Below are positions 159 through 63,789 of a stretch of DNA of 64,000 bases, in pieces. A program made the translations under genes and the position numbers. The stretch's first letter is position 1. Each line of letters opens with the position of its first letter. Location: contig CAKKNE010000001.1 in assembly GCA_918797485.1 (NCBI GenBank), positions 5,146,001 to 5,210,000 of the forward strand, read 5' to 3'. Origin of the DNA: Pelagomonas calceolata (Eukaryota; Sar; Pelagophyceae; Pelagomonadales; Pelagomonadaceae). Below the pieces are notes generated by a model. The model saw only the letters and a program-made list of their open reading frames with translations. It was not told the origin of the DNA and ran no database searches.

Positions 159-180
159 CTAGTGTCTTACATGACGCTAG
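159..180. promoter_or_regulatory. CTAG palindrome upstream of MFS gene
   Basis: Imperfect inverted repeat starting CTAGTG and ending CGCTAG (22 bases). It lies 146 bases before the ATG of the MFS gene and is the first of the recurrent intergenic palindromes. The rest of positions 1-325 shows no gene. Confidence 0.55.
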
Positions 181-325
181 TTCGGCGGCCCGGTTACAAA
201 AAAAGCGTGTAGTGCTCCTACAACCGCACGGTTTGAGCGCATAGCTCGTGTGCGCGACAGAAATCATAGTCACTGCCTGCACAGCAGACCGTGTGCCATA
301 GTATTCCCTACACGCCAAGATCTGG

Positions 326-1711
326 ATGGCACAGTCCTTGCTTGACAAGAACACCCTGTTGCTTCTCGCCTGCTCGTTTCTGCTGCAGTCCGATCAGAAT
401 CTCCTAGCGCCGCACTTAACGACGGTTGCCCATGAGTTCGGCATGAATGACGTCCAGCGCGACGAAAAGCTGGGCGGCGAACTTGCGATGGGACTATTCC
501 TACTCGGAGCGCCGGCTGCTCTCGCGATCGGTGCGTGCGCCGATCGCTATCCTCGGAAACTCCTCCTCGTCATCATACTGCTCGTCGGCGGCGCCGCGTC
601 GTTAGGCACTGCGCTCGCGCGCAGCTACTCCGACTTGTTCTGGATGCGCGCCTTGACCGGTGTGTCGCTCGGGTCAGCTCTTCCTGTCACGTTTTCACTC
701 GTGGGCGACATGTTCGCACCGTCGCAGCGGACGGCGGCGAGCGGTCGCGTGGGAGTGGCCATGTCTGCGGGAGTCGGCTTCGGACAAGCGATGAGCGGCT
801 TTCTTGGCGCGTGGCTAGCATCTTGGCGGGCACCCTTCGTAGTCGTCGGCGTGCTGTTCGTCGCCCTTGCGGCGATCGTCTGGATTGCATTCATAGAACC
901 GAGGCGTGGCGCGTTCGATGACACGGGTTCGGACGAGGACGAGCCTCGTGCCGAAACGGCACGACGCGATCTGGCAGCGGTTTTTCGGACGCCGACGGCG
1001 CTGCTCGTGTTTCTACAAGGGATACCAGGTTGCGTGCCATGGGGCGTCATTATCGTCTATTTACAAGACTACTTACAAGCGGACCTCGGCCTCAGCCTCG
1101 AGCGAAGCGCAATGGTGCTCACGTGCTTTGCAATTGGCGGCTTCGGCGGCCAATTTATTGGCGGAGAGCTCGGCCAACGACTCTATTCGTGGCGCAAGTC
1201 TGCAGCGGCGTGGCATATGTCCATAGCTGAATTGCTGTCGGTCCCGCCACTCGTCGTAATTCTCACGACGACCAAAGCAGACGCCAGCTTCGAAAAATTG
1301 GCACCCGTAGCCGTGGTGCTCGGCCTGCTCGCCACGCAAACTGGCCCGATCGTTCGAGCTTGCCTGACCAACACGACCGCTCCCCGGGCCAGAGCCTCGG
1401 CTTTTGCCGTGTTTGCTCTGTTCGACGACCTCGGTAAAGGGTTCGGCCCAGTTGTTATTGCACGACTGGTGCGAGCGTATGGTCGCCGGCGGGCGTTCGT
1501 AATTGCGACCATTTTTGGCTGGGGCGTCGGTTCCCTAGTTAATGCGGCGATCACCCTGACGCTTGAAGCCGACGAGCGGCGGCTCCGTTCCACGAACGAG
1601 TTCGAGCTCGTGCCCACCGAGACGCTCGGCGGCGCTGAACAGCTCCATCGCCGCTCGCCAAGTCACTCGCCCGACGGCGACGCCGGCTTGATCTACTTGG
1701 ATGCGACGTGA
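326..1711 (+). CDS. MFS transporter, spinster-like
   Basis: A 461-residue multi-pass carrier of the major facilitator superfamily, probably moving a small organic solute or lipid across an endomembrane or the plasma membrane. The order of hydrophobic segments fits 12 helices in two halves. The MFS signature loop between helices 2 and 3 is visible as GACADRYPRK near residue 70. A charged cytosolic linker rich in Asp, Glu and Arg near residues 192-217 separates the halves. The N-terminal run with DQNLLAPHLTTVA resembles the spinster/sphingosine-phosphate branch. The start is the first in-frame ATG, 146 bases after a CTAG palindrome. It converges with the giant WD40 gene, leaving 71 bases between stops. 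The substrate cannot be read from the sequence. Confidence 0.8.
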   Translation: MAQSLLDKNTLLLLACSFLLQSDQNLLAPHLTTVAHEFGMNDVQRDEKLGGELAMGLFLLGAPAALAIGACADRYPRKLLLVIILLVGGAASLGTALARSYSDLFWMRALTGVSLGSALPVTFSLVGDMFAPSQRTAASGRVGVAMSAGVGFGQAMSGFLGAWLASWRAPFVVVGVLFVALAAIVWIAFIEPRRGAFDDTGSDEDEPRAETARRDLAAVFRTPTALLVFLQGIPGCVPWGVIIVYLQDYLQADLGLSLERSAMVLTCFAIGGFGGQFIGGELGQRLYSWRKSAAAWHMSIAELLSVPPLVVILTTTKADASFEKLAPVAVVLGLLATQTGPIVRACLTNTTAPRARASAFAVFALFDDLGKGFGPVVIARLVRAYGRRRAFVIATIFGWGVGSLVNAAITLTLEADERRLRSTNEFELVPTETLGGAEQLHRRSPSHSPDGDAGLIYLDAT

Positions 1712-1782
1712 AAACCACCGACACCGCGTCGACGGCGTTCGGGGCAATGTTAGTTGATATGTTGTTTAATTCACATTACATT

Positions 1783-4700
1783 CTAGAGCCGCCGCGCGTG
1801 CGTGGAAGCCGACGTCACCTGGATGCTGTAAGGAATGGTCGGGCGCTTGCCCGTCGTCGGCGACTTGGGTGGGGGCTTGTGGTCGTACCTTTTATCGTCG
1901 ATGAGCAGGTGGTACCGCATGGGCTTGGGAGTAGCAAGAGTCATGGGATCGACGCGCGGCGCCACCGTCGCCTTCACCTGACTCTTCCACGAATCGGACC
2001 CGCGCGCGATCGTCCACCTCTCGTCTAGTTCTTCCATCGTCTCGCCGCGATCAGGACTGACAGACCTACGACGACGCCGCCGCTTCCCCTTCTTCTTCCT
2101 CTTCACGAGAGGCGCATGCGCGTTATCGACGGCCAGGGGCTTCATCGCTTCCTTGTCCTCACTTTTCATGTGCGCGAGGCCCATGCGGTACATGAGCTTT
2201 TCAAAAGCAACCGCATCTTCATCGTTCTCCGGGTTATTCAATTCATCCAGCGACACGTTCCAGGCCTCCATGGACGCTTGGGCCTCGGCCTTGGCTTCCA
2301 GAGTGTCACTACCAGGAGCCGGCGCCGGGACGCACGCTTCCTCCTCTTCCACAACCCCAGAAAAGGACATACTCAACTTCTTCGCCTGCTCCCTAAATTG
2401 TTTCCGCTGGTCCTGGACGCTACCCCTTACTAAATCGTCTTCCATCTCCGTCGCCTTTTTACCTTCTTTTATAGCCTTTTCTAAGGCCAACTCGTTCTCG
2501 ACGCGATTCGTCGCGTCCTCCAGAGCAGCGGCAAAGTCCTCTACTAGATCAGAAGCGGGCATCTCGGCTAATACCTTCAGTCGGCGCGTGATGGGTTCGA
2601 CTCGCTTCAAGGTAGCCGATTCGTCACCCTGATCAAGTAACCCGGAACAAGCCGCATAGATCGCGAAGTGGCACGGCGCTTTAGAAGCTGAACGGACAGC
2701 GACGCCGTACTTCCCGACTCTATATTTAGAGTGATCAGGCTGCACTACACATTTCTTCTCTTGTCTCAATGAGGTATCGCGCCAATCTGAGTCTTGCAAC
2801 GTCGGTATGCGACCGTGGGCCACCAACAAGTCGGCGTCGCCCTTGATGCACACCAACATGATCGTCGCGACGGCGCCGTTATGTGGTATCGTGAAGTTGT
2901 ACAACGCTTCTCGGGAAACGGAGCCGTGCTCGACGCGGAACCAAGTCAACGGTTTGGACTCATCTGGGAGTAGTAAATTAGAATCACCGAGATCCAACGA
3001 GTATTTCGCAAACTGCACATTTGACGATGAACCCATCACTTCGGCAAAAGTCCTAGAAGCATCTTGCACGGTCTTGCCGTTCAAGAGACTTTCGGCCTTC
3101 TCAACGCCAAGCGAAGCGTACAAGCGAGCTGATTGAGCCAAGACCTTCTCCAGCGCTCGATCTCGTTCCTCCTGCGACTGGTCACTCTTAACAAGTAAAG
3201 CCTTATCCACTTTATCCCGGTCCGCAAAATCATCAGCAAACCTCCTGTCAAAATACCTGCGCCAGTCATTGGTGACAGGTACGACCACGTCCGCCTCGTA
3301 CACTTTCGTATCTTTCACGTGAAACTGCTCATCATCATACTCCAACTTTTCTCCCCGACTTTCCCGGAAGATGCGCTGCACAGAGTCAGGTAAGCTATTC
3401 TCAGCCATGCCTTCCTCGCCGAAGACATCTAACGACTTCTGTAACTCAACCGCCGCGGGACCCATCATCGGAGGCTTCGACGGCCTTTGTTCCTCGGAGA
3501 ACGGATCAAATCTAAGGTCCTCGGAGAACGCGAATTGACAACCGAAGACCGGCCTGACTTTCGGTTTACTCTCTTCTTCAGCCCGCTTGCGCGCCTCCTC
3601 GGCTTCCCGCTCCAGCCGAGCCTTCTCCGCGGCCAACCGTTCCCGTTCTTCCTCCTCGGCAAGGGCCATCTGTCTTGCTAACTCCTCAGCCTCGGCCTCC
3701 TTCCGGCGAGCCTCCTCCTCCGCCGCCTTTCGTCGTTGGGCCACTTTGCCCAGCAACTTGCCCTTGAAAACGTGCCCAATCTTCTTCGTCCTTTGATCAC
3801 TAATATTCTGCTCGACCGCGCGGAACATGCCGGCCATGTTCCGCGCTTTCAGTTTCGCCAACTCGGCCGCGGCGCGCTCGTTCTCCTCGCGCATGCGCCC
3901 TTCGGCGTCCAACCTCGCTCGCAGTTCATCGGCCTTTTCTTTGGCGATTCGTTCCTCCTCCGCCAGTTGCCACATGTAGTCCCGCTCGTAGTCCTCTTCC
4001 GCTTGCATTTGAGCTCGTTCATTTGATTCTCTATTCATCTCTTGCTTGAGGAAGGCCTCTCGCTCGAGCCGGGCGATCTCCGCCAATCTCGCTTCCTCGG
4101 CCAAACGTTCCTCCTCGACTTGTTTTCGGATGAACGTACCTTCTTCCTCGTGAGAAGCCATCATCGAGCGTTCTTCTTCTTCCAAACGCGCTAAACGCTC
4201 CTCTTCCAAGCGCCTTAACCTTAATTCCTCGGCTAATCGGAATTCTTCTCTGACCAAGTCTCGCAACTCATGCGACAGGTGCTCCTCGCGCTCCATCTTA
4301 CTACGTTCATCCTTCTCTCTACGTAACTCCTCGCGCTTCCGCTTCTGGCGCGCACGCTTCTCTGCCTCGAGGCGCTCCTTCTCGGCCGCAATCCGCAATC
4401 TCTCGGCCTCCAGCTTCCGCAGCTCCTCCTGCTCGCGCGCAATGCGCTCCCGCTCCAACCGTTCCGCTACAGCTCTCTCAGCTTCTAACCGTTGTCTCTC
4501 GGCGCGTTCCTCCTCTTCCCTTTGTACGCGTAATGCCTCGAGCTCCGCCTCGACGCGAGCTCGTTCTCTAGCCTCCTCCGCGAGTCGCTCGGCCTCAAGA
4601 GCAGCTAGTCTTTCAGCCTCCAACCTGTCAAGCTCGGCCTGCCTCCGACGCTCCTCTTCGTCGGCCAAAGCAGCTCGTCTTGCACGCATCTGCTCCTCGA

Positions 4701-7700
4701 GCAGCCGAGCCATGTCCTCGCGCTGCTTCTTCGTGGCCGTGCCCGGCGGCGTCATGCCCGGGATATGAATTGCGGGAGCCGGGCCCGGCGCGACGGCCTG
4801 GCCGGCGGCGCGCTGTTTCTTGCGCTGCGCGGCTAATCCATCTCTACGCTTCTTCTCTAGATCCGCCTTGAGTCGGGCCACTTCATCGGGGGGTAAAAAC
4901 CGTACGGGAGAGACGCCTTTCCCGAGCGCGTTGTATAGACCAGCCGCACTTTCTACTCGTAGCATCTCCTCCCTAATAGAGTAGGGCGGGTGCTCGCCCC
5001 GTTCGCCTAGTTTCGCCTGCCATTCCAAGGCCGACTTGAACTGCAATTGCTTCGAGGAGGGCTCCTGTTTGAGTTGTCGCGCTTCGTAGAAGGGGTCGCC
5101 GATATATGTGTAAGTTGCTAACGACCGGTGCTGGCCCGGCTTGACGGTAGGATGCGGCCACGCTAATTGTTTACCTACCTCTTTCTTTGCCATTGAACGA
5201 CTTAAGGATTGGACGGGCCGCGCCGTCTCGTATTTTGGGGGTGATAACTGCGGCGCCGCCTGCTCTGAGACGTCGGACATGAACAAAGGCACGCCCTCCG
5301 CTTTTAGTGTAATGCCCGGGTTCATCTTCCGGATGCTTTGCACGGGTTTCTCCGGACGCGCGCGACGCCGCGAGTGCGCCGTCGCCGCCCTCGAAGCGCC
5401 GGCCGTGTCCCCTATTAACTCTTCGGAAGCTACGGTCGCGGGTCTGGATATAGTCAGAGTACCGGGCAATAAAGAAGGCCGCTTGTCAAAATTCACGAGT
5501 TCCGACACTTGGAGCTGGCCCGGGAAGAGGCTTGCCAATTGCGACTTCTTGGCTGGGGATCTCACAAACACAGGTGAAGATTTGGGCACGCCGACGTAGG
5601 AACAGTACGTCCGTAGGATCGAACCCATCTGCTCGTCGATGCCTATGAGCTGTTCACAAGCTATGGAATATAAAGCGTGCAATGGCGGCAACCGCTTGTG
5701 TAAGGTGCTATCAACCCACAACATGGCCCAGAAGTCCAGATAACACACCTGCTGGTCCAGGGGGTCGGAATAAGTTCTTACGATTTGTTTCAATGCGAGC
5801 TCGTTGTCCGACAATAAAGAGTCGTCGACCGGGTTTTGGAAGGTGGGCGAGGGCCACGGAGCCCACCCCGTAGTGCCGCCTCGTATACAATCCCCAAACT
5901 CGGAACCACTTAAAACGCCCGTTCTTGATGAATCTTTCGCCACAAATCTCAAAAGTAAATCTCGTAAAGATTGGAGGTCGCGGCTCCACTGCAGGTCGTC
6001 TACCGAAGTTTGGGGACCATGTCTCGAGGCCACAATGCGCTCCTCTCTCTCAAGAGCGAATAAGGTGGAAGCGCATCGCGCCGCGACAGCATCACCTCGT
6101 ACAATCTCTGAAGTCAGTATCAGCGCGAAGGCCTCCGCGTCGACGGCTTCGTCCCAATGACCATAAGGACTTCCGCGCAACCCTTTCAATGAAGCTAATT
6201 CGCGGACGACCGCCGAGGCCACCACCGGAGACGAGCAGACCTGCCTCGCGGCCGACGCGCACGCTCTTCTCGAGGCTGATAAATAACATAAGCCATCATT
6301 CGCCGCCGCTTCATACACAACATCCACGTCGCTCGGAATGTCCCCGTACAGAAACGCCCGATCTCTCAACCAGGCCAGCGCATCAATATAATTCACCGCT
6401 GCTCCTTCCGGGAATGCGTCATAACCATCAACGCCAAACAGCCGCGCGCACGCTAGTAACGAGGGCGCTTTCCGACCGTGCACAAATAATGAGTCGAGAA
6501 ATGAAACAACATGCGCCTCGGCGATCTGCCGCGGCCCGAAGCTCTGTCTGAATAAGGCATAGCAGGACGCCGCGAACGTGTTCGGTTTCCTTTGTGCGGT
6601 GTGCGCCGCGCTCAGCTCCTCGGCGTGCGCCTCGATGACCTTGCGGGCCTCCTTCATGCACACTCTAGGCGGCATCGCATTGACGGAAGTAGTTTCGGGG
6701 AGAGGTTCGGATTTATTCGGCATGGATCCCGTCTCGGACAAAGCTCTAGCGAATTTGAGCCGAGGGTCCGTAAACAACGCATCGAAGACCTCGGGCACCT
6801 CGGCCGGCGGCTTCGTTTGGCGCGGAGCCGTCGGCACGCGAGCCGGCGTCGCCGGCGTCGGGATCCGAGGTTCGGCTCGGAGCGGATACGGCGTCGGCAG
6901 CGGCGCGTCCGGCGCCACTAAATCACTTAGTGGCGTCGCTTCGACCATATAAGCCTCGCCCCAGTCGGCGTAGACCTTGCGCCGCTTGACTCGAGCTAGT
7001 TCTTTGTACCTTTTGACCGAACAACGCTTCTTCTCTTGCGTCCGGGACCAGCCGCCGCCGCCCCGATCTAGGCAGGGAGCGTGTTGTGTAGGCGTATCAT
7101 TTAAAATACGACAGAGATGCGCGGCGACGTCGCAGAGCTGGTCGTACGTTATCGACGCGCCCCGCCGCCGGTTCTGTCTCAACATATCAAGTTTGTCCGC
7201 GCGCTTCCGCCGGAATCGCTCCAGGTTATCCGCATCGTAGTCCTCGTCCTCGTCCTCGGGCCCGAGCCACTGCAGGGCCTCTTCATCGGCCGCGTCGAAG
7301 ACCGACGTTTCTCGTGATGCGGCGTCCACCTGATCCGGTGTGACGATAGGCCACCAGTTCTTGAGGATTGCTGGTAACGCAGCACCATTGACAAAACCCT
7401 TGCCGAAGTCCCTCAGATGGAAAGCGGTCCGTAGTGATTCGTCGGCCAACAACGTTTGTTGAGAGGGGAGGTCCTCCCTTCGGATGGGACTGATGGGTTG
7501 TTGCTCCTCATCGTCAGATACAGTAGGCTCCTCTTGGACCTGTCTGCCCTCAAACAAGTATTCGCCCGCGCCCGACGCCGGTCTCAGTTCGGCAGAAATG
7601 ATCGGCCGGTCGGCGACGCTCCGCGGTCGTTTCCACGGCATTTCGGGAGACGCTTTCGTCAGCCACGGCGCCTCCTCCACACTCAACTGGGGCTGCGCGG

Positions 7701-10410: not shown

Positions 10411-10429
10411 CTAGTGCATAGCACGCTAT
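10411..10429. promoter_or_regulatory. degenerate CTAG palindrome
   Basis: A weaker match to the recurrent palindrome (CTAGTG half-site, second half CGCTATG) in the divergent spacer between the giant WD40 gene (start 10236) and the SpoIIAA-like gene (start 10737). Confidence 0.25.
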
Positions 10430-11264: not shown

Positions 11265-11337
11265 CTCCTTCCTCCTCCCGGGGGGTTGTGTAATGTTGAT
11301 TTGTAATAAGAATAGTACTCACAACTTAGGCGGCGAC

Positions 11338-12776: not shown

Positions 12777-12797
12777 CTAGAGTGTCTGTAACGCTAG
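12777..12797. promoter_or_regulatory. CTAG palindrome in divergent promoter
   Basis: CTAG ... ACGCTAG inverted repeat in the spacer between the beta-helix gene (start 111 bases away, minus strand) and the S9 peptidase gene (start 136 bases away, plus strand). Confidence 0.5.
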
Positions 12798-18002: not shown

Positions 18003-18024
18003 CTAGTGTCTTACTGGACGCTAG
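18003..18024. promoter_or_regulatory. CTAG palindrome in divergent promoter
   Basis: CTAGTG ... CGCTAG, 22 bases, 87 bases upstream of the plastid membrane protein start (minus) and 269 bases upstream of the ankyrin gene (plus). A second, tighter palindrome (AGCTAGGCGGCCTAGCT) lies near 18213-18230. Confidence 0.55.
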
Positions 18025-21116: not shown

Positions 21117-21137
21117 CTAGCGCCAGTGAGACACTAG
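21117..21137. promoter_or_regulatory. CTAG palindrome
   Basis: CTAGCG ... CACTAG, 21 bases, 168 bases before the ATG of the membrane protein at 21305. Confidence 0.5.
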
Positions 21138-23484: not shown

Positions 23485-23507
23485 CTAGCGTCGCATTGAC
23501 ACACTAG
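23485..23507. promoter_or_regulatory. CTAG palindrome in divergent promoter
   Basis: CTAGCG ... CACTAG, 23 bases, 195 bases upstream of the WD40 gene (minus) and 147 bases upstream of the gene at 23654 (plus). Confidence 0.5.
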
Positions 23508-26213: not shown

Positions 26214-26235
26214 CTAGTGTGTTACGACACGCTAG
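26214..26235. promoter_or_regulatory. CTAG palindrome in divergent promoter
   Basis: CTAGTG ... CGCTAG, 22 bases, 64 bases upstream of the MYND gene (minus) and 311 bases upstream of the GNAT gene (plus). Confidence 0.55.
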
Positions 26236-31186: not shown

Positions 31187-31208
31187 CTAGCGGCCTATAA
31201 GACACTAG
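31187..31208. promoter_or_regulatory. CTAG palindrome
   Basis: CTAGCG ... CACTAG, 22 bases, 93 bases before the ATG of the Iwr1-like gene. Confidence 0.55.
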
Positions 31209-33432: not shown

Positions 33433-33454
33433 CTAGTATGTCTGTGTACGCTAG
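33433..33454. promoter_or_regulatory. CTAG palindrome in divergent promoter
   Basis: CTAGTA ... CGCTAG, 22 bases, 121 bases before the glycosyltransferase ATG (plus) and 216 bases upstream of the GTPase start (minus). Confidence 0.5.
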
Positions 33455-33574: not shown

Positions 33575-34813
33575 ATGCCGCAAAGGCAGAGTTTTACCTG
33601 CCTGGCGCTAGGCCTGCTAATCACAGCCATTGTGGCCGTACAGCTCCTGCTCGTCCACAAGCAGACGGCTATGCAGGTCCCAGACCTGCACCCGTTGGAA
33701 ACGCGACAGAAAGCCGAAGCGAACAAATTGCTGCAATCCCTCGAAGACGCGCGCCAGCGCCTCGAAGCCGTCCAGGCCGACCTGCGGCGGCAGCAAGAGG
33801 CGCTCGCAACGGAGCGCGTCGCCCTCGAGCGCTTGCGGAACGCCACTGCACCAGCAGCACAAGCAGCACAAGCAGCACAAGCAGCACCAGCAGCACCAGC
33901 TCCGCCGACCCTGATCCAGGGCATCCTCATGCACGTCGACCGCCCCGAGAATTATTTAAGGAGAGCGCTCGCGTCGCTCCTGACGGAGTGCCGCGAGACG
34001 GCGCTGCTGCGGCTTCTGGTGGTGGACGCGACGCCCGGCGCTGAAAGGGACGCCTTCATCGGTGCGCGCCGCGACCACGGCCGCTTGCCGATAGTGAGCT
34101 TTGTCCGCCTTGCCTCATCTGGTAGAAGGCGGCTCCTCGGCTCGCCGCAGAAGACGGCGCGGCAAGCGCGGGACGTCGCGCGGGCGATGAGGCTGGCGCT
34201 CCAGCATAAACGCTTCACCTACGCCTTTCTGCTGGAGGACGACTGGGTCGCGTGCCCCAACCTGCTGGGCAATTTATTTACTGCGGTCCATAGAGCAGAA
34301 GCGGTGCACGGGACGAATTTCGCGGCGTTGCGCGTGTCCTACGGCCTGAATGGAATAATCGTGCCTCGAACACGCCTCGCTTCCTTGGCCAAGCACGTCG
34401 AGCAGCGCGCATCACAAAAACCGCCCGACCTCGCGTTCACGGAGTGGGCTCTGCAACAAAACGGCAAGCTCGTGGCCTACCGCCACAACCTCTTCGTCCA
34501 CGTCGGTCATCAGAGTTCGGTAGGCAACTCGGGGAGTAGGTGGAACGCGGCCTGTTTCGAGCTCTTGTTCGACTGGCTCCAGAAGGGCGTCGAGGCCTTC
34601 GATGTCAAAAAGTGCGCGCACGACGCGATCTCGCCCTGCGACCCGCCTCCTAGACAACTGCCTCATGTAAACCGGCGGGCCAAGGCCTTCGCGTGCGAGG
34701 TCGCGCTGATGGACCTGCCCGTGGACCGGACGTCTGATAGATTACTGGGGTGCGTGCGGGACCGCGTGGAGCCGGCCGCGAAGTACCTGCTGCCGGCGCC
34801 GCGGATGGCATAA
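33575..34813 (+). CDS. type II membrane glycosyltransferase-like protein
   Basis: 412 residues. A single N-terminal anchor (LALGLLITAIVAVQLLLVHK) is followed by a coiled-coil stem (residues about 45-90) and an Ala/Gln/Pro linker encoded by an AGC-type microsatellite (33852-33900). The catalytic region from about 112 on has the look of GT-A enzymes: LIQGILMHVDRPENYLRRAL and FLLEDDWVACPNLL near 220, where the EDD may bind the metal and nucleotide sugar. This recalls MGAT4-type N-acetylglucosaminyltransferases, but the assignment is by pattern only. Golgi location is likely. Confidence 0.55.
   Translation: MPQRQSFTCLALGLLITAIVAVQLLLVHKQTAMQVPDLHPLETRQKAEANKLLQSLEDARQRLEAVQADLRRQQEALATERVALERLRNATAPAAQAAQAAQAAPAAPAPPTLIQGILMHVDRPENYLRRALASLLTECRETALLRLLVVDATPGAERDAFIGARRDHGRLPIVSFVRLASSGRRRLLGSPQKTARQARDVARAMRLALQHKRFTYAFLLEDDWVACPNLLGNLFTAVHRAEAVHGTNFAALRVSYGLNGIIVPRTRLASLAKHVEQRASQKPPDLAFTEWALQQNGKLVAYRHNLFVHVGHQSSVGNSGSRWNAACFELLFDWLQKGVEAFDVKKCAHDAISPCDPPPRQLPHVNRRAKAFACEVALMDLPVDRTSDRLLGCVRDRVEPAAKYLLPAPRMA
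33852..33900 (+). repeat. AGCACA/AGCAGC microsatellite
   Basis: Short tandem repeat coding for the Ala/Gln/Pro linker between stem and catalytic domain of the glycosyltransferase. Confidence 0.6.
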
Positions 34814-39969: not shown

Positions 39970-39991
39970 CTAGCGTCATGTAAGACACTAG
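39970..39991. promoter_or_regulatory. CTAG palindrome in divergent promoter
   Basis: CTAGCG ... CACTAG, 22 bases, 155 bases upstream of the gene at 39815 (minus) and 218 bases upstream of the PH-domain gene (plus). Confidence 0.55.
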
Positions 39992-41707: not shown

Positions 41708-41729
41708 CTAGCGGCCTGTAAGACACTAG
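41708..41729. promoter_or_regulatory. CTAG palindrome
   Basis: CTAGCG ... CACTAG, 22 bases, 186 bases before the ATG of the ZIFL-type carrier. Confidence 0.55.
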
Positions 41730-43841: not shown

Positions 43842-43863
43842 CTAGTATGTTACAGGCCGCTAG
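43842..43863. promoter_or_regulatory. CTAG palindrome in divergent promoter
   Basis: CTAGTA ... CGCTAG, 22 bases, 250 bases before the SPF30 ATG (plus) and 19 bases upstream of the predicted small gene (minus). Confidence 0.5.
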
Positions 43864-46474: not shown

Positions 46475-46494
46475 CTAGTGTGTCCATACGCTAG
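46475..46494. promoter_or_regulatory. CTAG palindrome at the tip of the left repeat arm
   Basis: CTAGTG ... CGCTAG with spacer TGTCCATA, 20 bases. It lies 202 bases upstream of the Cys-rich gene (minus) and also at the outer end of the large repeat arm. Confidence 0.45.
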
Positions 46495-47814: not shown

Positions 47815-47837
47815 CTAGCGTCTTTACAGGCCGCTAG
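47815..47837. promoter_or_regulatory. CTAG palindrome
   Basis: CTAGCG ... CGCTAG, 23 bases, 168 bases before the ATG of the 2OG-Fe(II) oxygenase. Confidence 0.55.
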
Positions 47838-49497: not shown

Positions 49498-51087
49498 CGG
49501 GGTTGTGTTTTTTTGCCAGCCAGGGGGGGGCCGTACCCCCCTTTTAGGGGGGGGTGGGGGGGGTTCACCCTTCATTACTCGCCGGCTCGAGGGTGGGGGG
49601 TGGGGGGGGTCGAAGGCTGCCGGAGGTGACTACCGTCGCGCGCGCCGGGCGCGGATTCCGCGAGGAACTCCTAGACGCGACATGAAGTTGTTTGAGTATC
49701 GTTCGGTTCGATACTGGTCCAAAGAGATCAATGGGACACTTACTGGGGGGCGAAAAAAATAATTTTTTTAATTCGCGATATTGACGGTCCTACCATGACG
49801 GCCGCGCCCGTGGAATCCTGTCGGTTCGTGGCGCGGAGGTGTCCCTGGGGTCGCCTAGGGTCGGTACTAGACACGCGCAAGCGCCTACACCGCATGCGCC
49901 GGCGCTTCAAGCATGTTTGGCCGATTTCTCTCAGCAGACCACTCGGTTTAGCCATCTTTTAGCCATGGTTTGCTTCCAGAGCCCTCCGAGACCACTAGGC
50001 TGCTGCATCAATGGCGTATGCGGTACATGCGCTTACCCACTACCAGACCTACCCCGAGAGACCTCCAGGAGCCGATCTACATCCGAAAAAAGTAAATAAT
50101 TTGGACCCGATGGCGCCCCGTTCCGTGCGACTGCGCCGCCTGCGCGCTCGCGAACCTGCGCCGCGTCCCCACGCATGGGCGATCGGCATCTGCGCGTGCG
50201 GACTACGAGCCTGCGGAATGCTGGGACTTCGACCTGGCCACGGACCTCAAGCCCACGGCCGTCGGCGGCTACGAGCACGCTCTCGACGGCTGCTGCGTCG
50301 TCACGGATTTCATGTACACCGCCCCGGTCAAGGCCAAGGACGCGCAGACCATCCTGACCGAGCCACAATCACATAGCTTATCGGTACGGTACCGTTAATC
50401 AAATGTAGTACACGTTCAGGCCGGTTATCTGGCCCTTCCCATAACCGAAGCGCCTGAAACGCAATTTTACTTTACAAAGTACCGGTCTGGGGCCAATCCA
50501 GTGCCCCGCGTACGCACCGTCGTCCGCGGAGAACGGGCAAGTCGGTCGATTGTAAATAGAACAACGGCGTTATGGTCCATCTGGATGGTGGCGTCGCTGA
50601 TACTCGCGGGTTCAGGTCTTGAGCCAATCTATGTATAAACGCGGGGTCGCGGAGTTGACGAATCCCGAGGATATTCCGGACCATCTAAGGCACCTCAGTA
50701 AATGTTCAATCGGCCTAGATGGACTCTACCACTAACAAACGGAAGGAAACGAACATAAACTCGGGAGTTGTCTAGTAGAATTCTTTTCCCGCCCTCCGAG
50801 CGCGCGCCGTCGGCTCCGGTTCCGTCGAATGTGTATGAAAACTGGGCTGGAGTTGATATGATTTACCATTTGGATAGTAGATGGCGGCGTCAATCGCTGG
50901 TGTATTTTGGCGAGCCGCAACACTTGGCGAGCTAGCGTATGGACATACTAGGACGCATTTTTTGGAGGGGGGTAGGGGGGGTCGTCTCATTTCTCCGGCC
51001 GGCCCCAGGGAGGGGGGTAGGGGGGGTGGCACGACGTCTCTAAAAGGGGGGTACGGCCCCCCTGGCTGGCAAAAAAACACAACCCGG
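49498..51087 (-). mobile_element. non-autonomous DNA element with terminal inverted repeats (1.59 kb)
   Basis: The ends 49498-49546 and 51040-51087 are inverted copies: GGGTTGTGTTTTTTTGCCAG, a G run, GCCGTACCCCCCTTTTAG. The left copy has two extra G. TAAG lies at the start of both flanking 8-mers (TAAGTCTA and TAAGATGC), too weak to call a target duplication. Most of the interior (49680-50951) is the inverted relative of 46475-47800. It also holds several G-runs (for example 50962-51026 and 49550-49610). No transposase ORF is seen, so it would depend on another element for movement. Confidence 0.6.
50932..50951. promoter_or_regulatory. CTAG palindrome at the tip of the right repeat arm
   Basis: CTAGCG ... 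TACTAG with spacer TATGGACA, 20 bases; the mirror image of the one at 46475-46494. Confidence 0.45.
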
Positions 51088-51094: not shown

Positions 51095-51113
51095 CTAGTA
51101 TCGATGACGCTAG
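51095..51113. promoter_or_regulatory. CTAG palindrome
   Basis: CTAGTA ... CGCTAG, 19 bases, 165 bases before the ATG of the TPR gene and directly beside the end of the 1.59 kb element. Confidence 0.5.
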
Positions 51114-51278: not shown

Positions 51279-53171
51279 ATGCCTGCCATCAAACACCACT
51301 CAGCAGAGGAGCGCAAGAAGATCATCGAGTCCGCCCAGAAAGCAGTGTTGGAGGACTGCCGGAAGCGCAAGGAGGAAGCAGAGTCGTGGGGCCCGCGCGG
51401 CCCGACGCCTTCTGATGAGGACAACGAAGCCGTGCCGCTCCAGGACGTCGGCTCGCTCTTAGGAAGGACAAAAGACATTGATGCGGTCCGCAAGATCATC
51501 CAGAGGAGCAAGGCCGCCAAAACGCCGGAGGAGCGAGCTAAAAACGCTAGGGATCTTATGGAGCTCTACGGTCCTTTACCTACTCCGCCCGAGGAGGAGC
51601 AAACTTCGGACTCAGAAGAAGAAGACGTCGCACCACCTAAAGTACCGGAGAAGCCCGTCGGTATAACGATGCGCGAGGCGGCCAATGAACAATTTAGGAA
51701 GGGCCAATATAGGGAGGCCCTGGCCGCGTACGATAGGGCCGCGGAAGCATTGGACGGCGCCGAGGCCGCCAAGTGCCACGCGAACAAGGCCGAGGCCTAT
51801 TTACGACTCAAAGAATATGAGCTAGCGGCGGAGAGCGCGTCGAAGGCTTTAGAGCTAGACGAGAGCAACGTCAAGGCGCGCTATCGGCGGGGCAAGGCCG
51901 CTCTGGAATTAGGGGATGCCGCGGCAGCTTTGGAAGATCTCGGCCAAGCGGCCAAGTCCGGCGACAAAGCTTCGTCAGAATTGTTCCGGAAGGCCCTCGA
52001 GACGCAGCGGCGCGCCGCCTTCAATCAAGCAGTCGAGGAGGAGACGGGGCCCTATGATTTGGAAGTACTGGTGGACGCTTATAGGGTTGGGTCCGATGAT
52101 CCAGAAGGACTCAGACCGTTTCTGGAAACAGCACAGAGTGCGGGCTTGTTATCAAGCGACGCTGATCTAGAGGAGGCCGCGGACCTGACGGACTTTTCGA
52201 CACAAATCTACGACGCCTCGGCCGTCCCGTTTTTAACAAGGTTGCGGGCCATCCGGAAGGCGGTAGAAGCGCAGAAGAAGCCGCCCTCCCCCAAATTCGC
52301 GGAGCCGTGGCCCGAGCACGAGCGAAATGCCTTCACCGAGAAGTTTGGAGTCAAGCCGTTCATCAAGGCGGACGCGGCGGCGTGCCTGGACGCGGAGAAC
52401 GAGAGTTTCGTCAGGGCGGTGCTCTCCAATAATTTCGAGGGCGACGACGTGGCGTTCGTGAATTCACTAAGGCGGCTGGGCGTACCGGCTTCCTTGGTTT
52501 TCGCGGCCTTTTTCAAAATATCAGACGGGCGCAACGACCTGGCCATGCACGTCCTACGCGGGGAGGACGTTTCAGGAGAACTCAAGGACGCGCTGGAGGC
52601 GATCGAGCGCGACGCGGCACGAGCTTACACTAATACCCAGGATTGTGTCGAAGCGCTGGAGACGTGGGCGTGCTTCACGTCGGCCGCGCTGGACGAATAC
52701 GGGCGCCTCGCGAGCGATTTTGATGAGATTGCCGCCCAATACGCACTGCAAGCCGCGGACGATTTGAAAAGCGACCCGCGGCGCCTGCTGAAAGCGACGC
52801 AAGCAACCTTCGACGCGTGCCGACGGTCCTTCGGCGGGCGGCCGCGGACCGGCCGGGGCCCCCTTGTGCGCGTCGCAATAAAGCGCGCCGCGGCGCTCGC
52901 GGCGTTGGGGCGGGAGGCCGCGGCGCGCGACGCGCTCGGCGAGGCCTGGGGCGGCGCGCTGCACCTCGTCTTCCGGGAGCGGGGCGACGCGGGCGACAGG
53001 ACGGCGCTCGCGGCGGAAGAAAAGGAGGCGCGCGCGGCTCTCGAGGAGTTAAAAGAGCCGGAGCCAGAGCCGGCGCGGGCGCCCCTGTCCGGCGGCATGT
53101 CGCCGCCCACAACGACGGGCCCCGTGTACTCGTCGCGCTGCGTGCTGCGGCGACAGAACCCTCCCGAGTAA
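51279..53171 (+). CDS. TPR-domain protein, co-chaperone-like
   Basis: 630 residues. A helical charged N-terminus is followed by three TPR units at about 130-240: AANEQFRKGQYREALAAYDR, AKCHANKAEAYLRLKEYELA and VKARYRRGKAALELGDAAAA. This triplet resembles the Hsp70/Hsp90 clamp of TTC and SGT proteins. The remaining 380 residues are mostly helical with no family I know (for example FVNSLRRLGVPASLVFAAFF). A chaperone-adaptor role is inferred from the TPR clamp only. ATG 51279 is chosen over the upstream frame, which is unconvincing. Its 3' end overlaps the convergent DUF3431 gene by 123 bases. Confidence 0.7.
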   Translation: MPAIKHHSAEERKKIIESAQKAVLEDCRKRKEEAESWGPRGPTPSDEDNEAVPLQDVGSLLGRTKDIDAVRKIIQRSKAAKTPEERAKNARDLMELYGPLPTPPEEEQTSDSEEEDVAPPKVPEKPVGITMREAANEQFRKGQYREALAAYDRAAEALDGAEAAKCHANKAEAYLRLKEYELAAESASKALELDESNVKARYRRGKAALELGDAAAALEDLGQAAKSGDKASSELFRKALETQRRAAFNQAVEEETGPYDLEVLVDAYRVGSDDPEGLRPFLETAQSAGLLSSDADLEEAADLTDFSTQIYDASAVPFLTRLRAIRKAVEAQKKPPSPKFAEPWPEHERNAFTEKFGVKPFIKADAAACLDAENESFVRAVLSNNFEGDDVAFVNSLRRLGVPASLVFAAFFKISDGRNDLAMHVLRGEDVSGELKDALEAIERDAARAYTNTQDCVEALETWACFTSAALDEYGRLASDFDEIAAQYALQAADDLKSDPRRLLKATQATFDACRRSFGGRPRTGRGPLVRVAIKRAAALAALGREAAARDALGEAWGGALHLVFRERGDAGDRTALAAEEKEARAALEELKEPEPEPARAPLSGGMSPPTTTGPVYSSRCVLRRQNPPE

Positions 53172-54083: not shown

Positions 54084-54360
54084 GTCACGAATGCGCTGGG
54101 GGCTTCATACGTGCACAAAACGCTGCCCCACGCAACGCAGCGCGTGCAGACGCACCGCAAGCACAAAACTATGATTCCTGCGGCGCGGACGAACTGTACT
54201 CGTGGAGCATTGCATCGATGCACAGGCAAAAAGAGCAAGAGGCAAAAGCTAGCGTGCGGGTTTCTACCCGGACTGATCAGAAGGACTGATCTAGTCCTAG
54301 CACCGTAACAGATCTGCAGACTGATCGGAAAACGGCGCCTTAGCAGCGGACGAATGATGA

Positions 54361-55062: not shown

Positions 55063-55534
55063 GGCTATCCCAGTGATCAAAGGGGATTTAATGCGTGGCC
55101 GCGAACCGGCGGGCGTTTGCAAGCCCTGCGCAAGTGGTATGCTCTGGCGGTCCTGGGACGTCGCAGGAATTTGCGGGGGCAGCCGAAAGTGGTCGCCGCG
55201 GACGCTTAAATCCAGATGGCGCGAGAGTCTGCTTTGCGTTCGGGTTCCAGTTCCAGGCCCACGAATCTGCCCACGATTGAGTTTCTGGACTCATGGTGTT
55301 ACCCCTCTCCGTCCAAGTGAGCTCGTGGAGGAGTACCGATGCTTAGAGCTAGTGCCTCTCCCAAGCACAACAGAGGAGTCGCAGAGCTGCACTTTGGCCG
55401 GCTCATACGACGGCATCACTGACATTCGTAAAGGCTGCGCTTCACAGGAGTTTCCATCAGACAACTGCAACCTATTCGTCTTGGTTCCGCATCGTTCGGG
55501 GCCGCAGCAGAAACAAAATCCAGCCGAAAGCAAA

Positions 55535-57262: not shown

Positions 57263-57280
57263 GACTAGAACAACACATAA

Positions 57281-60200
57281 TTAAGACCGATACGCACTCA
57301 TATCCAAGCGAACACCACCTCCAGCCGGCGACACCGGCTGCTGCGGCGCCCGCGCCCGTGCCGCGGCGCGCCCCATGCCGGCCTTGACGTCGGCCAGCGC
57401 GGACGGAGATAACCGCCCGACGGCGTCCTTGAAGAGCTCGACGTGGCCCGTAGCTACTTTCACGAGGACGTCGCCGGTCCCGTCGTCGCTTTTCAGGAGG
57501 GCGCTCAGGGGCGCCTCGAGCAAATCGGCGAGGAGCGCCGCTCGTTCGTGGGAGACCGGCGCCGTCAGCGCCGCCGCGATCAGGAGGGGCGTCGCCAGCT
57601 TATCTAATGCAGCGTCGCCGGTCGAGGCCTTGGCTGCTAGGCGCGGGAGCACCTCCGCCGCGAACGCCGCGGCAGAAGCGCCTAGCACGGCGTCACCGCG
57701 CGGCGGCAAGTAAGCCGCCACGACGTTCAGCAAACCGGCGTCGAGAGCTTCGGCGAGCGCCGCACCAGCGGCCGCAGCCTGCGCCGCGTCGGGCTTCGAG
57801 GCCGCCCAAGCTTTTAGTAAGGCGGCCGCGGCCGCGTCGGCGACGCGGGGCTCCGCGCCATCATTCAAAAAGGCTTGGCGCCGCACGACCGCCAGCTCCG
57901 GGAGCACGCCCGCCACGTCGGCAGGAAGCGGCTTCGCCAGCAACACGGCCGCGGGTGCGAGCGCGGCGACGGCCGGGTCCTCCGCGATCGCTCTCCAAGG
58001 CGATCTGCACGCCCGCAAAGCGAGTAGCAGGCAGCGTCGCGTCGCGCCGACGTCGTCGAGCGTCGCGAGGCGCGCCGCGGCGCGCAATGGGGCACCCGCG
58101 TCCCTTTGATCGGCGAGCGCGCGTTCCAGCGGGTCGAGGACCGACGCGGCGACGGCGGCCGGCGGCGCGACGCCCGCCTTCGCACAGGCGTCGAACGCGG
58201 CGCCCGGCGCGCCCCGCCGCGCGACCTCGCCCAGGGCCGCCGACCGCTGGTCGTCGTCAGCTAAAGCAGCGGCGCGCACCGCTACTGCTGAAAGCTGGGC
58301 CTCGTCGTCGCCACAAATCCGCAGGGCGAGCGCCACGAGCGCGTCGTCCGGGAACGAATCTTCCGACGGAAACAAGCACGCGGCGCACGCGATCGTCGCG
58401 AGGTACTCCGGCACGGGACCGCCGTCGTCCAGCAGCAGGGCGCCGTCGCGGCACGTCGCGCGCCACGCGGACGCGTCCACGGCCAATGATGGGTCCCGCA
58501 GCACAATGGCCGCGACCGTCGCCTGGCGCCAGACGCCTCCGGAGTCCCCCTTGGCCGCGACGTCGGCGACGCGCTTCCAGGCCGACGCGTCGAGGAAGCC
58601 GCCGACCTCGTGGACCGCCCGGAAGGCGCTCCTTAGCTCAACGGAGGACGCGCCGGGCCGCAGGGCCGCGCGGAGCGACGACGACATCTGCGGCGCGTAG
58701 ACGTCGAGGGCCTTCGCGCCCTGCGGGTCGTCGACGTCGACGACGCCTCCCAAATAGCGGGCGCACGCCGCGAGCAAATCTAGACCGGCGGCCCGCAACT
58801 CGGAGAGCGCAAAGTCGTCGCCCACCGTCGACCCGGCGAGCGAGCACGCCGCCGCGGCGACGCGCGCCGCTCTGAGAGAAGCGTAGTCCGGCGCCGGCGC
58901 CGCGAAGTCCCTTCTCCTTAAAGCCTTGCGCGCGTCGCGCACGGCCTGGTCTACAGCCTTGCGCGCTTCCCTCATATCCGTGTGGAGCGGGTCTCGTAAG
59001 AGTGCGAGGACCGCCGCGGCCGCGTTCGCGAGCTCGCACCGCGTCTGCCAGCGCGGCGCGGCGCCGAGCCGCGCGAGCGGCGCCGCCGCCTTCGTGCGAT
59101 TCGCGTCAATCGCCTGCCGTCGCAACGAATTCAGCGTCTCCTGGACCGGTTCCTCCTCTTCCACAACTTCGGACACGTCGCCGGGCTCCTCGTCGACGAC
59201 GCCCAACACCCACCGCTGGCAGCCTTCCGTCTCGGCGCACGCGTCCAATACCGCTCCTAAGCCAATTTCCTCGCGCCGCGGCTGCTCCGCGCCGAGCACG
59301 CAGAGCCACGCCGTCGCCGCGCGGCAGTCGTCCACGTCAGCTCGCGCCGTCGCGGCTAGTAATGAATGGGCATCAATAACCGCTAAACGCGCGACGGCCT
59401 CCCTCCGCTCGAAGCCGCGCGGCAGGAACAGGCCCCGCCACCGCGGCGCCGTCCCCGAACTTAAACGTCCTTGGGCCCGCTCGACGCATACTATAGAAGC
59501 GTGCGCCGCGCACTTGCGCTTGATAGCTTGCGACGCGTCTTCATCAGTTTTGATGAGACATATCGTCCGTAACATTTCCACGTCGCCGCGCGCCGCGGCG
59601 TCCGTCAGCGCCGCGCACTTGAGGGCGAGGTGCGGGCCGCGCACGACTCCCGTCAATGCCGGGAGCGCCTTGGCCGCGTTTCTCTTCACATACGCTTCTA
59701 CGGAAGCAAAGTCTAACCTGGACACGGCGTCCGCGACGCGCGCGTAGCGTCTCGCCAAATCGACGTCTCCAGTTAATTGCGTTGGCTCCACTAAATGACC
59801 AACGCACCGCGCGATGCAGCACGCCAGCACGCTCCCGCCGTCGAACCCAAACACGTTCTCCGGTCTTTTAGTTTCCGTCATGGCTTGCGCCGGCGACTTC
59901 GTCGTCGGTTCGGCGAAGGGCGCCGCGAGCTGCGCCTCGAGCGCGTCCAATACCAGGGAAACGGCCTGGCGCCTCCTTTCATTATCCGCGTGGACTAGAC
60001 CGGGCACGGCGTCGCTCAGCCCGCGCACGGCCCAGGCCCGCGCCGTCGTCGATAATAGAAGAGACCCCTTGGTCAGCGGCGTCGCCAGGACGTCGCAGGC
60101 CGACGGCGCCGTCAGGACCTTCTCCCGCGCCAGATCCGCGACGGCCGGCGCCGCGGCCGCGCGCCGCGCGGAGTCTCCCGGATTCTTCGGCGCGTCCTGC

Positions 60201-63200
60201 CTCCCGCAGGCGTCGGCCAGGGCGCGCGCGGCGCCGAGTCTAGCTCGCGCGTCCGGCAGGCGCGCCGCCAGAGCGGCCAACGCCGCGGCGGCCGCGCGCC
60301 GCGTGCACGGCGACGCCGCGGCCAGCGCGCGCGCGAGCGCGTCGCGCGGCTTGTCGCCGAAGGGCGCATCTGACAATAATTTCGGGGGCCCGAAGGGGTC
60401 CGCCGTCGGGTCCGGCCGCGTCGCGTAGGTCCGCGGCAGGTTCGAGACGCAGGCTAATAAAGCCATCGACGCGTTCCGCGCGCACGCGGCGCACCGCAGA
60501 TCCCGCTTGCGCTTCTCATCATCAGAAGCCATCATCGCGAGCTTCGCCGGGTTGAGGGCGGCTTCCAAGGCGCCCGCCAACGCATCTAAACCCTGGCGCT
60601 GCGCGTCGGCGTCGACGCGCGGTATCAGCGCTCGCAGACACCGCACGCACGCGTCCACTAACCTCGCACGGGTCTCGCCCGCCCGCTCCGCGGGCAAGTC
60701 GCCCGTCCGACCCACGGCCAAGGCCGCGAGGACGTCTCTCTCCCCAGGACCTAAAGCGTCCCCGTACCTCACGGCCAAATTCGACGCGTAGGCGTCGTCA
60801 ACTACACTCGAACATGCCCCGGCCCCCAGGAACACCGCATCCGGGGGTCCTAATCCGGGAGACGCGTGCGACGCCAGCAAGACGTCGTCGTCGCAGCCAA
60901 TCACGTCGCGCGGCTCGAACGTCGTGCACGCCGGCGTCTCGCTCCTTAAAGCCGCGATGGGGCAGTCCGCGAAGGCCGCGTGCGCCGAGCCGCCGCCGGC
61001 CGCCCCGAGGAATAAGCCACAACACCATCTAAATGAAAGCGTCGCGTCGTCCTTGTTTGGTAGAGAGGCCTGGGCTTCGAGTAAAGCAGCCGCACACAGA
61101 GCTAAACGCGCGAAGCTTCTAGATGTTTGCAATTGCTTCGACGCGAGGATGGACCGCGTCTGCGTCAGTAGTTGCGCAACATCCTGGCCGAGCTTGCCTT
61201 CGAGTAGAGGCGAGCCCGATTCACATAGAGCGGCGACCGAAGATAAACAAGCCTCCAGGCAGGTCAGGCGCACCTCGGCCGCCGCCTGGCTCGAGTCGTC
61301 GCCGGCCCACTGGACGCTCCGCTGCCAGACCTCGCTTAATCTACGGGCCTTCGTCCGCAACCACTTCGGTGGCGAGGACGCCACGACGGCGCCCAGGACG
61401 CCCCAGCCGGCCCTCGCGCAGGCCACCAGCGCCCCCGCTGAGAGCAAGTCGTCGTGCTGTCTCATGACCAAACCTTCCGCGACGGCCAAGGCTTCATCTA
61501 ATAATGAAGGCGAACTATCCGAAGACGACCGCAAAACGGCAGAGGCTAAAGCCGTGCCACCATGTAAAGCACACATGCCGCCTCGCAGCAGCTGCGCCGC
61601 GTCACTTCTACGGGGCCGCGCCTGCGCGCCCGCCGGCGGCGCCGACGCGAGATCGACTAAAGCGTGGTGCTCCGCCGCCGCGCCCCGCAACGCCATCGTC
61701 GCCAGCGGCGCGGCCCGCCCCGGCACGGCCGATGCCAAAGCGCCGCCGAGCGCCGCGGCCTCGCAGCGCACGCCGAAGGCCGGGTCCGACGCCGACGACA
61801 ATGCGGCTCTTTCTAATGCTTCGGCTTCCGGTGCGGCGGCTTCGCCTAAAGCAGCGGCGAGGTGCGCGCACTCCGCTAAGACCACTTGCAATTCGCCGTC
61901 CGCGAGCTTCCGGCCCTTCTCCTTCAGGTCGTCGGCGTGCCGGTCGACGGCGCCCGCCAATGTTAGTAGAGCACTTAAAACTTCTCGTTGTCTCCTCTCA
62001 TGGACCTCGCCTAAACCTCGTCTTAGCGCGTCGGCGATGGCCGCGCGGACGGTTGCATGTAAAGGGTGCTCCGACGGCACGCCTCGTAACGGTGCGAGCG
62101 CCGCTCGTATGGTAGCTTGGAGGCCCTCCTCCTCGACACTCTTTAGGAGTGAAGCGAGGCAGCCACCTGTTCCAGCGACGCCTGCTCTCGAAGAGCTCTT
62201 GACCTGGCGCATCATCAATGAGGACACGAAGGCGCAGGCGTCCGCCGATGTAGGCCCGCGGCCGTCGCCACCACTCAAGGCCTTGGCGACGGGCGACGTC
62301 CGCTTCGCGAATTCGGTGGTTGAATTCTTCGAGGACATCATCTGGATCTTCGGGAAGCTGCCCAGTCTTCTAGGCGGGCTCGCACCGTCATGAGGCTTCT
62401 TCTCCTCATCCGCTCTATTCTGCGTCGCCGCGAAGCGCTCGCGCGTCGCGCGCGCGCACCGGACGTGGGCCGCCAATGCGCTTCCCGCAGCTTGGCCGCA
62501 GTGCACTCTCACCAGAGTGTCCTCGTCACTTAAATGGCGCGCGGCCGTCTCTACCAACCTGCGTGGAAACCACATCTCAGGCGCCCCACGCCATCGACGC
62601 GACGTTGTCCCGGTGATAATCTGACTCACACTGCGACCGACGCGTCGAGCAGGTGCAGCGCTGCGTCCACCGTCGACCGCGCCCTCTTCACAGGATCATC
62701 AGGAACAGGTTCCTTCTCTCCTTGTTTCTTCGGGGGCGCCGGCGCCGGCGCCGGGGCGGTTTTGGACGTTTCTGCGGCGTCCGCTACTACACTAGCCAGG
62801 TTCGCCACGGCCCTATCTGAAGCCTCGGCCGCCCTTTGTGAGACGTCCCGCAGTGACGCCGCGGCGGCCTTGCGACATGATGAATCGTCCGAGCCCTTCA
62901 AGACCTTGGCGAGCGCACTCACGCAGTCCTTGCCGGAACACACGAGGGCCTGCTTGTGCTGCTGCGTCTGCACGGGCCGCGGCGCGACGCCCGTGACGCC
63001 CTCGTCGGGCGACGCGAGGACGACGCGGCCCAGTGCCCGGGCCGCTGCGGCTTTGGTGGACTGGTCGTTCTTCGCGAGTTTCGCGAGGCGCTGGCGCGCC
63101 TCGCCCAGCGCGCCGGGCCCGAGCCGCCGCGGGTACGTTGCACACAAAGCGCCGAGCACGACGCACGCCGCAGCCCGCGCGCCGGGCTGGATGACGAGCT

Positions 63201-63588
63201 TCTGCTGCGATTGTAGGGACTGGGCGATGGACGCGACGTCGCCGCAGCACTCGTGGAGGCCCCGCGCGGCCGCGTAGAGCTGCCCGCCGGCGTCGCCCCT
63301 TGCATACAACGCTTCGGCCGTGCACGCGAGCTCGTTCGCCAGCGACGCGGAGAAGACGAGTTTCGGGTGGCGCAGCACGGCCTCGACGGCGTCCCAGGCT
63401 TTCGCTTGCGACGCGTTCTCGCGGAGCGCCTCGACCGTCGAGATGTCGGCCGTGGCTTCTCTTAATAAAGCGAGGTTCGTGGCGACCGATGCGCTGCTCG
63501 CTAGGCGCGCGTCGTCGTTGCCGGCCGCGTCGCAGGTTTTTATTGCTGCTTGTAAGGCTGTGGAGGCATCTTGTAAGGCTTGGGCCAT
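57281..63588 (-). CDS. HEAT-repeat protein, HEATR5/Laa1-like (two exons)
   Basis: Exons 62630-63588 and 57281-62558 join in phase 2 to 2078 residues, close to HEATR5 proteins (about 2050). HEATR5/Laa1 helps the AP-1 clathrin adaptor work at the trans-Golgi and endosomes. The sequence is a continuous alpha-helical HEAT array, Ala-rich. Segments resembling the family include APRWQTRCELANAAAAVLAL, the FALSELRAAGLDLLAACARY region followed by VYAPQMSSSLRAALRPG, and the N-terminal YAAARGLHECCGDVASIAQS. The 71-base intron has donor GTGAGT and acceptor CCACGCAG. The start is the first ATG (63588). Family assignment is by remembered pattern and length. Confidence 0.65.
62559..62629 (-). other. intron of the HEATR5-like gene
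   Basis: 71 bases, phase 2, donor GTGAGT, acceptor TTTCCACGCAG. It contains GTCGCGTCGATGGCGTGG, identical to the arm of the introner core. No left terminal repeat remains. It links two frames that otherwise end and begin without ATG. Confidence 0.85.
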
Positions 63589-63768
63589 CGTCGGCGGCGC
63601 GTGCGACGACGCCGACCCGCTCGAGTGCCGCAAGTGTATTGGACGTGGCTCTGCTGATCGCAGCGCTCGACCACTTCTCAGGCAAGCTGTTATTTGTTAT
63701 CTCTGATAGCTACACCGCTGTCGCAGCAGCGACTTTGGCCGGCGCAAAGGTTGCTTGCTTGCTTAATG

Positions 63769-63789
63769 CTAGTGTCTTACGGCCGCTAG
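63769..63789. promoter_or_regulatory. CTAG palindrome in divergent promoter
   Basis: CTAGTG ... CGCTAG, 21 bases, 181 bases upstream of the HEATR5-like gene (minus) and 149 bases before the F-box-like start at 63938 (plus). Confidence 0.55.

Follow-up and report, generated by a model that had tools for sequence, protein, structure and literature searches.

A pair of facing CTAG boxes, hereafter the dyad, recurs upstream of genes in a stretch of 64,000 nucleotides of the alga Pelagomonas calceolata (C1:5146001-5210000; this whole stretch is referred to as the window). It is probably a bidirectional core-promoter element of the nuclear genome of this pelagophyte, transcription starting at its outer edges. 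The recurrence is confirmed as real and genome-wide, and the dyad is best read as a promoter element of unusual grammar, which resembles the CGCG element of vertebrates and the initiators of other eukaryotes but is neither.

The genome analysed totals 32,445,274 bases in 8 contigs, including C7 (90,574 bases) and C8 (39,373 bases). The part consulted of the report on strain RCC100 gives 32.4 Mb in six nuclear contigs, a plastid of 90 kb, a mitochondrial contig of 39 kb, a GC content of 63% and 16,667 genes (PMC9481584). Genome-wide, the pattern CTAGYG-N4..14-CRCTAG is found at 4303 sites, versus 134 for a control, the same pattern read backwards, and a long form, CTAGTGTCTTACNNNNCGCTAG, at 703 and 676 sites on the two strands (1379) versus 0 for the control. 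Widening the gaps to 1-31 yields 4443 sites (control 379), a gain of just 140, and the excess is therefore confined to gaps of 4-14. Furthermore, in a 303-kb set that served for the pair counts and the position-weight scan, 87 pairs of CTAG lie 12-22 bp apart from start to start where 21.1 are expected (ratio 4.12), 40 of them at exactly 18 bp. This marked excess is seen for CTAG alone among the 16 palindromic tetramers, the ratios of the others being 0.83-1.35. CTAG itself is scarce in the window (139 copies versus about 221 expected from base composition), in line with the remark in the first-pass annotation of this DNA that it is usually rare. The long pattern has no match in viral_contigs, from which records very near the genome of the window may be left out, and Rfam gives no match at the gathering score in 90.5 kb (the window and loci L023, L024 and L036).

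Placement at gene starts

The gene models come from a self-trained gene-finding hidden Markov model (HMM) applied to the window and to four 50-kb blocks at fixed positions on C1-C4 (264 kb). The 142 models obtained comprise 206 kb of coding sequence (CDS), and convergent spacers amount to 6.4 kb. Pfam families were found at 1e-5 for 19 of the 30 long open reading frames of the window that were submitted, and much of the gene map therefore rests on real genes. Of the 46 exact copies in these 264 kb, divergent spacers hold 27, tandem spacers 10 and predicted introns 6; the remaining 3 fall outside the last gene model at the edge of a stretch. None lies in CDS or in convergent spacers, so the equal density in coding DNA or 3' spacers that would speak against a promoter role is not seen. 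The 26 copies with one mismatch comprise 11 divergent, 6 tandem, 2 intron, 1 edge and 0 convergent ones, and 6 in CDS. At promoter density, 6.2 copies would be expected in convergent DNA.

Location within introns was considered and rejected. In all 8 cases (6 exact, 2 with one mismatch), the upstream frame ends 41-159 bp before the dyad and an ATG lies beyond it, as in fused models of neighbouring genes; these copies are therefore better read as tandem gene boundaries.

A position-weight scan of the 303 kb (score above 14) finds a dyad in 38 of the 59 divergent intervals, in 16 of the 39 tandem ones and in none of the 58 convergent ones, with one match in CDS, which bears out the promoter element proposed in the first-pass annotation. 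As the matrix was trained on exact copies from the same sequence and 19 kb were fetched as the counterpart of dyad-bearing contigs of a relative, these fractions lean slightly upward. The threshold has little effect: raising the score from 8 to 20 lowers the divergent intervals from 40 to 36 and the tandem ones from 18 to 14. Divergent intervals carry one copy in 37 cases, two in 1 and none in 21. The neighbouring gene pairs themselves (59 divergent, 58 convergent, 39 tandem) alternate strongly in strand (p = 3e-10 versus an even split), the exact ratio being weakened by tandem pairs hidden as fused models. In convergent spacers another motif, ACGCCATC, is over-represented (8 of 36), yet it also occurs in dyad promoters (10 of 56); it is possibly a 3'-end signal.

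Translated eukaryotic leaders avoid ATG, and the depletion of ATG on the sense strand therefore traces the 5' end of the mRNA. It was followed on 111 gene sides around 66 elements whose boxes show no more than a single mismatch; this pool leaves out every interval that exceeds 1200 bp, is convergent or does not hold exactly one dyad, as well as gene sides no longer than 20 bp, and includes 8 loci picked for carrying the motif as well as loci of the relative, among them L040. Between dyad and start codon, ATG occurs 99 times versus 264 for CAT (p = 2e-18), the strongest strand skew of the 32 trinucleotide pairs. The best change point lies at +5 bp outside the dyad (bootstrap 10-90% range 0 to 5), where the ATG rate falls from 0.0133 to 0.0040, positions inside the dyad carrying no counts in the fit. 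In tandem promoters, ATG is found at 24 of 1762 positions upstream of the dyad versus 10 of 2423 downstream (p = 0.0013). From about +5 to +40 the depletion faces either box (ATG 5 versus CAT 20 on 54 sides; 2 versus 16 on 50 sides), and 7 sides with an unclear box show ATG 0 versus CAT 4. On the 74 gene sides that lack a dyad, where positions were binned from the start codon, the depletion is weaker and has no step.

As upstream ATGs become rare from about 5 bases outside the dyad, the 5' untranslated region (5'-UTR) seems to begin at the dyad, which would thus coincide with the transcription start instead of simply preceding it. It is this apparent origin of the leader that leads us to read the dyad as a bidirectional core-promoter element with starts at its edges. 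The boundary of ATG depletion would then correspond to the transcription start, and both directions would use one dyad. In tandem promoters, CAT is low upstream of the dyad (17 CAT versus 32 ATG in 150 bp), a faint hint of upstream antisense transcription.

A replication origin, or an insulator or boundary seated in open DNA between divergent genes, would be compatible with the position between genes and the absence from 3' spacers. Neither role predicts the presence of the dyad in 16 of 39 tandem intervals nor its coincidence with the ATG-depletion boundary, and we regard this explanation as unlikely.

Structure of the dyad and its copies in the window

Oriented by its CTAGTG box, the element has the consensus TTG-CTAGTGTCTTACA-KGC-CGCTAG-CTC, with a well conserved middle, TCTTAC, and conserved letters that end 3-5 bp outside the boxes. 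A CTAGTG box is paired with a CTAGCG box in 54 of the 55 exact copies of the 303 kb, and in 97 of the first 100 listed copies of the genome, which all come from the beginning of C1; about 50 would be expected under independence. Indeed, only 3 of these 100 are symmetric at the fifth letter, versus 49.6 expected if the letters were independent. A strict palindrome was therefore rejected. What had been called a palindrome does consist of two inverted boxes, but these are not equivalent, and the element is an asymmetric near-palindrome. As symmetry is avoided, one strand nearly always carries a C-A mismatch.

In the same 100 copies, the spacer is 10 bases long in 54, 9 in 17, 8 in 15 and 11 in 8, the rarer lengths being 6 (four copies), 7 (one) and 12 (one). 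Orientation relative to the downstream gene is random, within small numbers (5 same and 7 opposite in tandem promoters; 4 and 2 for the copies in predicted introns). On the CTAGTG side of divergent spacers, the gene start is somewhat closer to the dyad (median 161 bp versus 205 bp on the other side, p = 0.02, n = 31).

The copies in the window are listed below; the strand is that on which the CTAGTG box is 5'. All 16 places named in the first-pass annotation do carry two facing CTAG boxes, and the spacers of 7-11 bases given for them are correct. The stated form CTAGYG...CRCTAG is exact at 11 of them and one base off in one box at the other five (12777, 33433, 43842, 50932 and 51095).

159..180, + strand: exact dyad (CTAGTGTCTTACATGACGCTAG), upstream of gene model 443-1711 (+)
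10411..10429, + strand: degenerate dyad, one mismatch, between divergent genes; missing from the first-pass list
12777..12797, + strand: dyad with one mismatch, divergent promoter
18003..18024, + strand: exact dyad, divergent promoter
21117..21137, - strand: exact dyad in a predicted intron, better read as a tandem gene boundary, the upstream frame ending 51 bp before it
23485..23507, - strand: exact dyad, divergent promoter
26214..26235, + strand: exact dyad, divergent promoter
31187..31208, - strand: exact dyad, tandem promoter
33433..33454, + strand: dyad with one mismatch (left box CTAGTA), upstream of gene model 33671-34813 (+)
39970..39991, - strand: exact dyad, divergent promoter
41708..41729, - strand: exact dyad, tandem promoter
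43842..43863, + strand: dyad with one mismatch, tandem promoter
46475..46494, + strand: exact dyad; its divergent interval is long and may conceal a missed gene
47815..47837, no strand: exact dyad of the rare symmetric CG/CG form
50932..50951, - strand: dyad with one mismatch (right box TACTAG)
51095..51113, + strand: dyad with one mismatch, upstream of gene model 51279-53171 (+)
63769..63789, + strand: exact dyad, upstream of gene model 57281-63588 (-)

Inverted boxes around a variable spacer also recall a hairpin, either a stem-loop formed by RNA at the 5' ends of mRNAs or a DNA cruciform, in which the spacer would be a loop of free length. As exact palindromes are avoided (the 3 symmetric copies mentioned above) and orientation to the gene is random, which an RNA function would preclude, both a structured RNA and a plain cruciform are disfavoured; the RNA hairpin was rejected on these grounds, and the explanation as a whole is very improbable.

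Conservation in a relative and candidate mechanisms

A pattern scan of GTDB genomes returned three stretches, all in marine metagenome-assembled genomes labelled Spirochaeta. The contigs concerned are syntenic with the Pelagomonas genome at 76-91% or else agree with it at 96% over a stretch of 1 kb; the match of L034, at 96%, covers its dyad. Contigs L033, L034, L035, L036 and L038, in Spirochaeta sp. MED672 and uncultured Spirochaeta ERR599032_bin.133, are thus evidently pelagophyte-like contamination. L040 has no syntenic match in the Pelagomonas genome, where it matches only repeats, and was left out of the comparison; it carries a repeat of roughly 98 bp (L040:4825-4922) that has >30 matches in the alga with an identity of at least 74%.

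Two contigs of the relative, picked for carrying dyads, were compared; seven promoters are comparable, an eighth running off the contig end. The dyad is kept in place and orientation in 5 of the 7, with 59 of 60 box letters identical (compared by eye) and spacers, in Pelagomonas and the relative respectively, of 11/10, 8/8, 12/8, 9/10 and 10/8, hence changed in 4 of 5. In another promoter the dyad is inverted (L036:5353 versus 7594 on the reverse complement of L037), through either in-place inversion or turnover, and in the last it is exact in the relative and degenerate in Pelagomonas. In three tandem promoters, the 80 bp upstream of the dyad are near random identity (0.16, 0.44 and 0.36; nulls 0.32-0.35), whereas the 80 bp downstream reach 0.68-0.81; the dyad is therefore the first conserved feature of those genes. 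Three divergent promoters give upstream/downstream identities of 0.75/0.69, 0.42/0.82 and 0.50/0.46.

These data bear on a further explanation, namely that the dyad is a miniature mobile element, or the footprint of a transposon, with insertion into promoters. Thousands of similar copies would fit it, as would another dispersed repeat found near several tandem spacers. However, the dyad has no conserved body beyond its termini, the flank consensus ending after 3-5 bp; promoters usually carry a single dyad; and 5 of 7 copies were kept in place between genomes 76-91% alike, their box letters maintained while the spacer changed. This explanation, too, is very improbable.

The dispersed repeat, which begins TGTTACGGTGCTAGGACTAGTGGGCGG, occurs at 54291-54310 of the window and at L036:299-455, L023:7261-7397 and L024:7738-7892. 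The possibility that the dyad is part of it, as a 157-bp unit, was rejected, the repeat lying at a varying distance and in only some tandem spacers. Its 19-base core has 93 and 108 exact copies genome-wide (control 0). All 6 placed copies of a 14-base core, 5 of them tandem and 1 convergent, lie nearest a 3' end and in the orientation of that gene, and some copies of the repeat end in an intron-like ...CCCGCAG, so it could be either an introner or a signal of 3' ends.

If the dyad is a bidirectional core promoter, its mode of action could be as follows. The two facing boxes, similar without being identical, are separated by a flexible middle. Both would be held by a sequence-specific protein, which is probably dimeric or carries a pair of similar DNA-binding domains, a bound dimeric factor being plausible. 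Once bound, this protein would position the initiation machinery, and transcription would begin at the outer edge of one box or the other, or within a few bases of it, and proceed outward. A single dyad would then serve both genes of a divergent pair, and a dyad in a tandem interval would serve one gene, in either orientation. More tentatively, the dyad may correspond to back-to-back initiators, each CRCTAGCWM box being an outward start site, with a pelagophyte factor that reads CTAGTG and CTAGCG across a springy spacer; 22 bp would then make up the whole core promoter of two genes, in a genome largely arranged as divergent pairs around the dyad.

A competing explanation overlaps the core-promoter reading, so that our confidences in the two are not mutually exclusive. 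The dyad may be the site of a general regulatory or pioneer factor, which clears nucleosomes between genes and lets transcription start wherever open DNA allows, the start base being unset. We place this at a little short of an even chance. A long motif of high information, present usually once per promoter, non-universal and independent of orientation, fits it equally well, but the ATG-depletion boundary, located within about 5 bp, is tighter than scattered starts would lead one to expect.

Several observations weigh against a core promoter with starts set by the dyad. The gene models are the HMM calls of this analysis. In the upstream/downstream comparison of tandem promoters, TAT and TTA are more depleted than ATG, and the A+C versus G+T skew, a second possible marker of the 5'-UTR, has no sharp step at the dyad. 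The bootstrap ranges of the change point are wide when tandem (-38 to 16) or divergent (-36 to 5) promoters are taken alone, and the 10 sides of the relative yield by themselves no resolved ATG boundary. A single rigid transcription factor dimer does not normally tolerate spacers of 6-12. Lastly, the dyad is missing from 21 of the 59 divergent intervals and from 23 of the 39 tandem ones and is therefore not universal. A weak dyad hidden in dyad-less promoters was rejected for most of them, since CTAG pairs occur in 4 of 42 versus 1.9 expected from shuffles. Promoters that lack a dyad contain GGCTGCCC in 20 of 42 cases versus 12 of 56 dyad promoters (a post hoc comparison). Outside genes this motif lies mostly 7-140 bp before an ATG, and 18 copies are also in CDS; it is possibly a second promoter or 5'-UTR element.

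Relation to known promoter elements and significance

No description of the dyad was found among the top-ranked results of a literature search, subscription papers and supplements being outside it, and the main text of the Pelagomonas genome paper does not contain 'motif', 'palindrom' or 'promoter' (PMC9481584). The closest parallel is the CGCG element (TCTCGCGAGA) of vertebrate CpG-island promoters. As described in the part consulted of its report, this short near-palindrome of TATA-less promoters drives both directions, lies between the sense start and the antisense one, usually no more than 50 bp away but at no fixed distance, and has a rigid core, an insertion mutant being inactive (PMC6192621). 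The dyad may likewise be bidirectional; its ATG-depletion boundary lies about +5 bp outward, and the depletion faces either box. Its consensus, CTAGTGTCTTACAKGCCGCTAG, is unrelated in sequence to TCTCGCGAGA; it avoids symmetry, whereas the CGCG motif is symmetric as described there; and, so far as its sequence tells, its spacer occurs naturally at 6-12 bases and drifts between relatives, in contrast to the rigid core.

Like initiators (Inr), including the oomycete INR/FPR, the dyad would be a core element at the start of TATA-less stramenopile promoters, and its outward reading CTAGCWM loosely resembles the Inr YYANWYY. The portion consulted of the oomycete study gives the consensus YCAYTYY for INR and MWTTTNC for FPR, with forward/reverse biases of 5.9 for INR+FPR and 2.9 for INR alone (PMC3599244). 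The dyad differs from the oomycete elements as described there by its absence of orientation bias (in small numbers), its sequence and its two facing boxes. A parallel for a lineage-specific protein acting on a sole core element would be provided by Trichomonas, whose Inr-binding IBP39 is presented as exclusive to the genus and whose Inr is, in that account, single and unpaired (PMC8871863). PF10416 (IBD domain) has no match in the Pelagomonas genome, and no control genome matched either.

The yeast factors Reb1 and Abf1, or NRF1-like factors, clear nucleosomes between genes. Like the dyad, the sites of yeast general regulatory factors and of NRF1 are strong, free of orientation and present in many promoters, often divergent, but their motifs differ from it and the spacing within each site is fixed. 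A giant virus of the pelagophyte Aureococcus is described, in the part consulted, as methylating adenine in CTAG and CTAGY (PMC12700378).

To our knowledge, core promoters are known in few eukaryotic lineages. If the proposed reading is correct, an abundant ocean alga would gain a core-promoter element that is defined, frequent and recognisable from sequence alone. In the 303 kb, the intervals bearing a dyad hold 92 of the 157 modelled gene starts (two for each of 38 of 59 divergent intervals, one for each of 16 of 39 tandem ones); transcription starts would become predictable for those 92 genes, and the dyad would offer a compact two-way promoter for genetic tools. Its asymmetry rule and flexible spacer raise the question of how one protein reads two facing boxes, and, more largely, the dyad bears on why this genome favours divergent gene pairs.

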